NCBI RefSeq assembly: GCF_022848905.1
Contig: NZ_JAFIRA010000033.1
Location: 1 to 45,537 of the forward strand
Length of the DNA stretch: 45,537 bases
Source: Thermostichus vulcanus str. 'Rupite'
GTDB taxonomy: Bacteria > Cyanobacteriota > Cyanobacteriia > Thermostichales > Thermostichaceae
Direction of reading: 5' to 3'
The position numbers and the translations under genes are program-made. The notes below the pieces were generated by a model, which was given only the letters and a program-made list of their open reading frames with translations, had not been told where the DNA came from and made no database searches. This document shows, piece after piece, positions 18,297 to 45,537 of the stretch; position 1 is the stretch's first letter; each line of letters begins with the position of its first letter.

Positions 18297-18317
18297 CCCC
18301 AGCGATAGAAGCTGGGG
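18297..18317 (-). repeat. Solitary IS-end-like hairpin with TTCTA loop
   Basis: On the minus strand CCCCAGC, loop TTCTATC, GCTGGGG forms a perfect 7-bp stem followed by AGT. The fold and the TTCTA loop match the IS200/IS605 left-end hairpins at the window ends and the hairpin at 32784-32804, while the stem sequence differs. No T-run follows on either strand, so a terminator is unlikely. Confidence 0.45.
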
Positions 18318-32233: not shown

Positions 32234-32752
32234 TTGCACGAGATTTCCATCACCTGGGCTGACTACCACCGCAAAATCGAGGAGTTGGCTGTCAAAGTTT
32301 ACGAAAGCGAGTGGGAATTTAACCAAATCGTCTGTATTGCCAAAGGGGGCTTGCGCATTGGCGATACCTTAGCCAGACTCTTCGATCTGCCATTGGCGAT
32401 TCTCTCTGCTTCTTCATACTCCGGCCCCGGCAACCGCCAACGGGGAGTTCTGACCTTCTCGCGTGACTTAGCCATGACCACCGCCAATTTGGGGAGCGAG
32501 GTGTTGCTGGTGGATGATCTAGCGGACTCCGGTGTGACTCTAAAGCGGGCTGTCCATTGGCTCAAACATCACTACGGCTTCTACATAGAAGAGATTCGCA
32601 CAGGTGTGTTGTGGTATAAGGCAGCTTCGGTGTATCAACCGGACTACTATGTGGATTACCTGCCGGATAACCCCTGGATCCATCAGCCCTTTGAACCTTA
32701 CGAGCAACTGACTCCCCAACAACTGGCGCAATCGCTCAGGGCTTCCGGTTAG
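32234..32752 (+). CDS. Phosphoribosyltransferase
   Basis: The 172-residue product belongs to the type I phosphoribosyltransferase family. The PRPP-binding motif VLLVDDLADSGVTL is at about 90-103, preceded by the IVCIAKGGLRIGDTLA loop that binds pyrophosphate. The general pattern is that of xanthine/hypoxanthine salvage enzymes (gpt-like, ComF-like members are shorter or zinc-bearing). Base specificity cannot be read. The only sensible start is TTG at 32234, since all family motifs lie downstream of it and no ATG occurs until residue 81. The accessory patch begins directly after the stop codon. Confidence 0.85.
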   Translation: MHEISITWADYHRKIEELAVKVYESEWEFNQIVCIAKGGLRIGDTLARLFDLPLAILSASSYSGPGNRQRGVLTFSRDLAMTTANLGSEVLLVDDLADSGVTLKRAVHWLKHHYGFYIEEIRTGVLWYKAASVYQPDYYVDYLPDNPWIHQPFEPYEQLTPQQLAQSLRASG

Positions 32753-32759
32753 TTTAATC

Positions 32760-32812
32760 GGCGGGAAGCCCCGCCTGACGACTCCCCGCGCATAGAATGC
32801 GGGGGGTTCTTT
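32760..32812. repeat. Two adjacent hairpins, terminator-like and IS-end-like
   Basis: GGCGGG/CCCGCC (32760-32775) is followed by CCCCGC/GCGGGG (32784-32804) and TTCTTT. On the plus strand the second could terminate the phosphoribosyltransferase transcript. On the minus strand it reads TAAAG, then a C-rich stem, an ATTCTAT loop and a G-rich stem followed by AGT. That is the same design as the IS200/IS605 left-end hairpins at the window ends, which also have TAAAG just before the stem. Confidence 0.5.
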
Positions 32813-33100
32813 AGGTTATCGGTTTCTCCCCCAGGCTCTCGCACAAGGCTACAGCATCCTGGGTCTTCAAACGTTCCCCTAAAGCTTTCGAGACGATGAC
32901 CCTTCGGGTCGTGCGGAGCACGATGACCCTCCGGGTCGTGCGGAGCACGATGACCCTCCGGGTCGTGCGGAGCACGATTGAAGATGGGTTATTTATAGAG
33001 TGTGGTCGCCTGTTGCCAAGCCGTCATCAGGATGGTGTCCCAACCTTGACCCCAGGCTTGATTAGCCAGAGTCGCATTGAAACAGGCGGTTTCGAGATCC
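32813..33100. other. Non-coding accessory segment with tandem repeat
   Basis: Between the phosphoribosyltransferase and VOC remnants lie about 290 bases without an intact gene. They hold the 27-bp tandem repeat and an orphan 43-codon minus-strand open frame. The minus-strand reading resembles the downstream part of a TnpB element (structured RNA-like sequence ending in a C/G hairpin), but no TnpB coding remnant was recognised. Confidence 0.4.
32893..32973. repeat. 27-bp tandem repeat, three copies
   Basis: Three direct copies of a 27-bp unit (32893-32919, 32920-32946, 32947-32973), starting ACGATGACCC and ending GTGCGGAGC, are contiguous. A fourth copy breaks off after ACGAT. The first differs at one base (CTT versus CTC). 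Each unit can fold through GACCC/GGGTC. An open frame through it encodes repeating MTLRVVRST, most likely an artefact of the 27-bp period. Confidence 0.9.
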
Positions 33101-33120
33101 GCTGAAAGCGGGTCAGCAAG
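32989..33120 (-). other. Orphan open frame, 43 codons, possible gene remnant
   Basis: On the minus strand a frame bounded by a TAG (33123 down to 33121) and ending in TAA (32991 down to 32989) reads [20 protein letters not shown], then a Trp-rich QAWGQGWDTILMTAWQQATT tail. It looks protein-like (acidic, Trp-rich) but has no early start codon and no family I recognise. It may be the 3' remnant of a gene cut at the junction with the VOC fragment. Confidence 0.2.
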
Positions 33121-45361: not shown

Positions 45362-45436
45362 ATGAGCTACTCCCCTGATTTCCGCTTGAAGATTGTCACA
45401 GCTTACGAAGAGCAGCGTAAAGCCCCCGGTTTCTAA
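45362..45436 (+). pseudogene. IS630-like transposase, N-terminal fragment cut by IS200/IS605 insertion
   Basis: ATG at 45362 opens MSYSPDFRLKIVTAY, the usual beginning of IS630/Tc1-mariner-type transposases (helix-turn-helix start). The frame crosses the TTAC target at 45403-45406 into the left end of the IS200/IS605 element and stops at 45436. Only about 15 native codons remain here. The rest of the gene would lie beyond the inserted element, outside the window. Confidence 0.6.
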
Positions 45437-45537
45437 CCGGGGGATATAAGCGCACAGGCTGAATTTATTCAGCAACAGAAATAGTACATACAATAGTCCC
45501 CATGAAACGGGTCACCACCACACTCAAGCTCAAGTTT
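45407..45537 (+). mobile_element. IS200/IS605-type element, left end (runs off window)
   Basis: This copy begins after TTAC (45403-45406), with AAAG immediately before the CCCCCGGTT/AACCGGGGG hairpin and a leader to the tnpB ATG at 45502. It is inverted relative to the copy at 1-119 and matches it over all shared bases except one (A versus G next to the left tip). It lies inside an IS630-like transposase gene. Confidence 0.8.
45502..45537 (+). CDS. tnpB: TnpB (IS605 OrfB-like), first 12 codons only
   Basis: ATG at 45502 starts MKRVTTTLKLKF, typical of IS605 OrfB/TnpB. The window ends within the gene, so catalytic residues cannot be checked. It is the same protein start as the minus-strand copy at 1-24. 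Confidence 0.75.
   Translation, partial: MKRVTTTLKLKF

Follow-up and report, generated by a model that had tools for sequence, protein, structure and literature searches.

A hairpin in Thermostichus vulcanus str. 'Rupite' that is very probably the right end of a truncated IS200/IS605-type tnpB element

The window analysed here is a whole contig of 45,537 nucleotides (C33) from the 3.72-Mb, 120-contig draft genome of Thermostichus vulcanus str. 'Rupite'. Our main focus is a minus-strand hairpin at 32784, which lies 3' of a plus-strand gene (32234–32752) that ends just before it. On both sides the contig ends inside copies of the insertion sequence (IS) that is abundant in this genome, which is probably the reason the contig stops there. 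The relevant features are:

1–119, minus: abundant IS, left-end part (the contig stops within the copy); TTAC flank at 120–123, guide AAAG, hairpin CCCCCGG-TTTCTAA-CCGGGGG
32775–32814, minus: right end (RE) of a tnpB insertion sequence, CTAAAGAAC + hairpin + AGTCG + TCAG
Between 32775 and 32774, minus: predicted RE cleavage point
32775–32778, minus: putative right cleavage site C_R, TCAG, which recurs with GAAC in tnpB relatives
32784–32805, minus: imperfect-palindrome hairpin, CCCC-CGCAT-[TCT]-ATGCG-(bulged C, 32788)-GGGG
32806–32809, minus: putative right guide G_R, GAAC, at the 5' foot of the hairpin, a position equal to that of the IS608 G_R GAAT (PMC5934647)
32811–32813, minus: tnpB stop codon TAA, the end of the remnant
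32811–33102, minus: tnpB 3' remnant, C-terminal ~85 codons, broken by an in-frame stop and three 27-nt repeats
32893–32978, plus: three tandem copies of the 27-nt palindromic repeat (repeat family D2), inside the tnpB remnant
45407–45537, plus: abundant IS, left-end part (the contig stops within the copy); TTAC flank at 45403–45406

The hairpin folds better as DNA than shuffled sequences do (z = −3.2), and no T-run follows it. Sites of the form CCCC-N3-TTCTA number four in the window versus 0.42 expected, and an Rfam search of the window returned no match. A second small inverted repeat (GGCGGGAAGCCCCGCC, 32759–32774) lies directly beyond the RE and is possibly the edge of another IS. Palindromes of the GGGATCCC type are very frequent in the window (repeat families D5, D8, D12 and I3–I6) and resemble the highly iterated palindromes of cyanobacteria.

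The initial annotation had described the 32784 hairpin as solitary, but ~290 nt of tnpB coding tail are joined to it, and the TAA of the TAAAG upstream of its stem is the tnpB stop codon. An intact parent is found in a viral contig (L087), in which a 518-codon tnpB ends in ...GERFKTQDAVALRESLGEKLIT-stop, the stop codon overlaps CTAAAGAACCCCCGCATTCTATGCGCGGGGAGTCGTCAG, and the same hairpin block follows directly 3'. The L087 element matched the window at 80% over 329 nt, tnpB tail included (blastn, 33100–32774), and its TnpB matched 33102–32932 and 32897–32814 (tblastn). Searched against protein families, the L087 TnpB matched the NCBIfam model NF040570, guided_TnpB (E = 4.7e-24; 85 bits, under the curated cut-off of 100), and gave no Pfam match. 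The window remnant has neither the left end nor the remainder of tnpB. Because no left end was found in the window, and none was recognisable by eye in L087, the whole transposon is not delimited; tnpA is likewise absent from the remnant, and none was seen beside the L087 tnpB.

Blastn and tblastn comparison placed none of the 27-nt repeats in the L087 parent. This 24–27-nt palindromic repeat (~CGTGCTCCGCACGACCCGGAGGGTCAT), tandem in the window remnant, is also present in contig C4 (L002, ~1633–1685) and is common in the loci we read; abundant-IS tnpB genes (for example L015 and L016) contain variants of it inserted in frame, and the repeat seems able to enter a gene while leaving the frame intact.

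Genome-wide there are three copies of the 40-nt RE block (CTAAAGAACCCCCCGCATTCTATGCGCGGGGAGTCGTCAG). The copy in contig C40 (27016–27055) is identical to that of the window at 40 of 40 positions, and the copy in C4 (95491–95530) has its inner stem altered on both strands, with three two-sided compensatory pairs relative to the other two. In both the window and C4 the block is preceded by a reading frame ending ...GERLKTQDAVALCESLGEKPIT-stop, so that C4 carries the same tnpB tail plus RE. The C40 copy is a bare RE: it is intergenic, truly solo, and has no left-end hairpin, and the ~16 nt that separate it from the upstream gene leave too little room for a left end. At C4, the sequence again becomes homologous to that of a related strain from the predicted cleavage point onwards. 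We also considered target-site logic for C4, where the related strain has TCAA in place of TCAG, and set it aside as one site, too little to build on. Exact empty sites for the window and C40 copies were not recovered in relatives, their flanks diverging before the junction. A weak match at C19:38784–38807 (L131; GAAC-CCCCTGGCTTCTAGTCGTAGGG-AGGATG-TTAG, 14.2 bits) looks like a fourth, decayed right end with a TTCTA apex.

The pattern AAGAACCCC...GGGGAGTCGTCA, run on 8 genomes of the family and 386 of the phylum, matched in the source genome only. Blastn of the window remnant against plasmids and phages, and of the 40-mer against plasmids, gave no match. Loosening the RE pattern yielded one further match among 388 genomes of the class; it lacks a paired inner stem and was rejected. 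A scan of viral contigs for GAACCCC...GGGGAGATTCAG gave a single match, with no recognised tnpB end adjoining it, which we took to be due to chance.

The starting point for this work was the claim that three kinds of site fold alike, namely the left ends of the abundant IS, the hairpin at 32784 and a second minus-strand hairpin at 18297. Re-reading the window confirmed that all three sequences are present where the initial annotation placed them. A covariance model built from five right ends of the 32784 type gave only three matches above 60 bits genome-wide (61.7–64.6 bits), the copies in the window, C40 and C4, with 32784 itself at 64.6. The next-best were 54 right ends of the abundant IS at 28.2 bits, followed by ~48 matches at 18.7 bits, almost all of them its left ends; weaker matches that we read are either decayed look-alikes or the right ends of further IS605-type elements. 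The hairpin at 18297, at 8.2 bits, is at chance level. Stems that vary but stay paired are a property of 32784 and its relatives, as the compensatory pairs in C4 illustrate, and 18297 falls outside that set. The shared TTCTA is found at the IS ends and at 32784, but as a TCT triloop closed by a T-A pair rather than as a loop of five; at 18297 it lies in an open loop of 7 nt. Finally, AGT does follow the stem at both 32784 and 18297, but the right-end tail (AGTCGTCAG) continues at 32784 only.

Hairpins of the C4-N-TTCTA-N-G4 form are indeed commoner than in a control, with 222 genome-wide against 6 for the reversed pattern; among the matches listed, all but two are ends of the one abundant IS. 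A wider comparison is provided by 115 viral right ends, with 74 distinct hairpins among them. Their most frequent form is CCCC-nnnn-TTTA/TTCA-n'n'n'n'-(bulge)-GGGG, preceded by GAAT and followed by AGTGTCAA, with four variable paired bases and one bulged base in the 3' arm. The window hairpin follows this plan with a 5-nt TTCTA apex, seen in 0 of the 74 viral hairpins, and a bulged C. The resemblance of 32784 to the abundant IS is therefore architectural, reflecting the common plan of IS200/IS605 right ends, and a varying but paired stem with a kept loop is a general RE design and no sign of one transposase. Cross-recognition by the transposase of the abundant IS, with which 32784 shares the uncommon apex, may occur as a minor possibility.

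The abundant IS, of IS605 type, is organised as TTAC|GAAAAGCAGCGTAAAG-hairpin at the left and GAAT-hairpin-AGTG-TCAA| at the right, with a full length of ~1.3 kb. The TTAC flank is present in 36/36 left ends read and GAAT/AGTG/TCAA in 22/22 right ends read, which gives exactly the four motifs of IS608 (C_L TTAC, G_L AAAG, G_R GAAT, C_R TCAA; PMC5934647). Comparison of full-length copies, which the initial annotation had proposed, showed the right-end hairpin to be identical in sequence to the left-end one (CCCCCGGTTTCTAACCGGGGG) and not unrelated to it. Since AAAG is the IS608-type left guide, that guide is part of the TAAAG preceding the left hairpin. TAAAG is also present at 32784, as had been noticed, but the register differs: at the IS left end it directly adjoins the stem, whereas at 32784 it is displaced outward by 3 nt. 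The two right ends differ as well, with GAAC-hairpin-AGTCG-TCAG at 32784 versus GAAT-hairpin-AGTG-TCAA in the abundant IS, and with 5 nt rather than 4 between stem and cleavage site.

Most copies of the abundant IS that we read carry tnpB only (guided_TnpB match). One copy (L041) has a Y1 tnpA (C2:58186–58533; PF01797, E = 1.2e-32; NF033573, E = 2e-35) and is likely an autonomous source serving the tnpB-only copies in trans; at this locus (C2:58110–59880) tnpA is divergent from tnpB. By eye, the tnpB of L015, L010 and L041 seems to lack most of the usual cysteines in its zinc-ribbon region (TSKTDHRTG...GYCCDADWNAA) and appears to keep the RuvC-like acidic residues. The L087 TnpB returned none of the abundant-IS loci by tblastn at E <= 1e-3.

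The difference in guide and cleavage site recurs beyond this genome. GAAC occurs with TCAG in the window, C4, C40 and L087, and again in relatives of the L087 TnpB found by tblastn (49–34% identity for those read) from Scytonema, three Acidithiobacillus caldus plasmids, Pseudomonas and Geobacillus virus E3; two Calothrix relatives have GAAT/TCAA. An annotated tnpA lies directly upstream of tnpB in Acidithiobacillus pLAtc1, Pseudomonas and Geobacillus virus E3, all of them GAAC/TCAG relatives annotated as IS200/IS605; the GAAC/TCAG code thus has transposases of its own. In viral contigs AGAATCCC...GGGAGTGTCAA, with the GAAT guide, occurs more than 100 times, and AGAACCCC...GGGAGTGTCAA, which would combine a GAAC guide with the abundant-IS cleavage site, 0 times. 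One viral AGAATCCC...GGGAGTCGTCA element (L253) has AGTCG-TCAA after a tnpB-like tail and is consistent with the code.

In these pairs the fourth base of the guide and that of the cleavage site go together as T with A or C with G, and we infer that these two bases pair with each other; the IS608 paper gives pairings for the left end only (PMC5934647). Exceptions after GAAC, in near-identical RE motifs, are a Symploca solo end with TCAA, a Ktedonobacter end with TCAC directly after a tnpB-like tail, and a TCAC motif in a Fulvivirgaceae genome. Given that guide and cleavage site change together, the 32784 code is a cognate variant of the pair, probably served by a different TnpA.

On the observed homology to an intact parent, the conserved architecture, the genomic copies and the linkage of GAAC with TCAG, we consider it very likely that 32775–33102 (minus) is the 3' remnant of an IS200/IS605-type tnpB element and that the hairpin is its right end. 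The initial annotation had named as one reading solo ends belonging to the abundant IS and selected for structure, being disseminated or retained through recognition of that structure by the element's own transposase. The shared TTCTA apex, rare elsewhere, speaks for this, as does the rank of abundant-IS right ends as next-best covariance-model matches; moreover, trans-mobilisation of tnpB-only copies is to be expected because L041 carries a Y1 tnpA. However, 32784 belongs to a different tnpB parent, whose relatives share GAAC/TCAG and in three cases sit beside their own tnpA, and it departs from the abundant IS in guide, cleavage site, spacer and the bulge, which the abundant IS lacks. Together with the absence from viral contigs of a GAAC guide joined to the abundant-IS cleavage site, these differences make such an origin unlikely. 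A related idea is that the bare C40 RE, identical to the window copy, was moved or copied without a left end, and that a lone GAAC/TCAG RE can spread by itself, perhaps via the TnpA of the abundant IS with its shared rare apex; to this we give slightly less credence again. A transposon-independent host hairpin of REP-like or terminator type would suit the place of 32784 just 3' of a gene and the bare intergenic copy in C40, but the tnpB tail attached in both the window and C4, the lack of a T-run and of any match in seven family relatives, and above all the same block after an intact tnpB in L087, which contradicts this reading, leave it extremely improbable.

The hairpin at 18297 fares little better as a fourth member of the set, which we regard as highly improbable. 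It does have the C4-TTCTA-G4 form on the minus strand followed by AGT, a form for which the reversed-pattern control yields 6 chance matches per genome. Against membership, the covariance model ranks it tenth in the window (E = 3.7), no similar sequence exists elsewhere in the genome, it is without a guide or cleavage motif, and its position corresponds in related genomes to ordinary intergenic DNA next to a conserved TCATACTAAACATC block. It is a chance look-alike, and the host DNA in which it lies is unremarkable intergenic sequence.

As the right end of a tnpB element, 32784 corresponds to the right-end/omegaRNA hairpin that had been named as an alternative, although the guide-RNA role is argued from known systems. 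By analogy with IS608 and ISDra2, in a living element the single-stranded DNA of the top strand would fold, the hairpin would serve as binding site for a Y1 transposase (TnpA), and GAAC at the hairpin foot would position TCAG for a cut at 32775/32774, after TCAG. As RNA, the RE block together with the tnpB tail would act as the 3' scaffold in the TnpB guide RNA (reRNA/omegaRNA), and the next ~16 nt of host DNA would be the guide. The window copy, having lost its left end and most of tnpB, is very probably dead and inert.

Several known systems offer parallels. On Borrelia plasmids, free-standing IS605 right and left stem-loops without transposase have been described, with compensatory changes and sometimes a bulged T (Delihas 2009, PMC2775950). 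C40 is such a case and therefore not new in kind; here, however, there is only one truly bare copy, identical to the window copy, which gives no sign of long-term retention. The PATE of Halanaerobium IS605 is a short derivative made up of ends only, for which mobilisation in trans is assumed (PMC7290912); unlike it, C40 consists of a right end only, close to its upstream gene and without a left-end hairpin. In ISDra2, the reRNA 3' scaffold of ~150 nt comprises the tnpB 3' end and RE, followed by a host-derived guide (PMC8612924), and the window remnant spans the same segment, but with a broken tnpB.

The closest likeness is to the right end of IS608/IS605 (Y1 HUH), with which 32784 shares a subterminal hairpin flanked by a tetranucleotide guide at the 5' foot and, on the 3' side, by a TCA-type cleavage site; it differs in its GAAC/TCAG code, TTCTA apex and 5-nt spacer, and in being truncated in the window. 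Otherwise ordinary transposon debris, the locus explains why unrelated-looking hairpins in one genome have a family look, as right ends built on one plan, and it provides a natural covariation in which guide and cleavage site of IS200/IS605 right ends change together, in agreement with the guide model of IS608.
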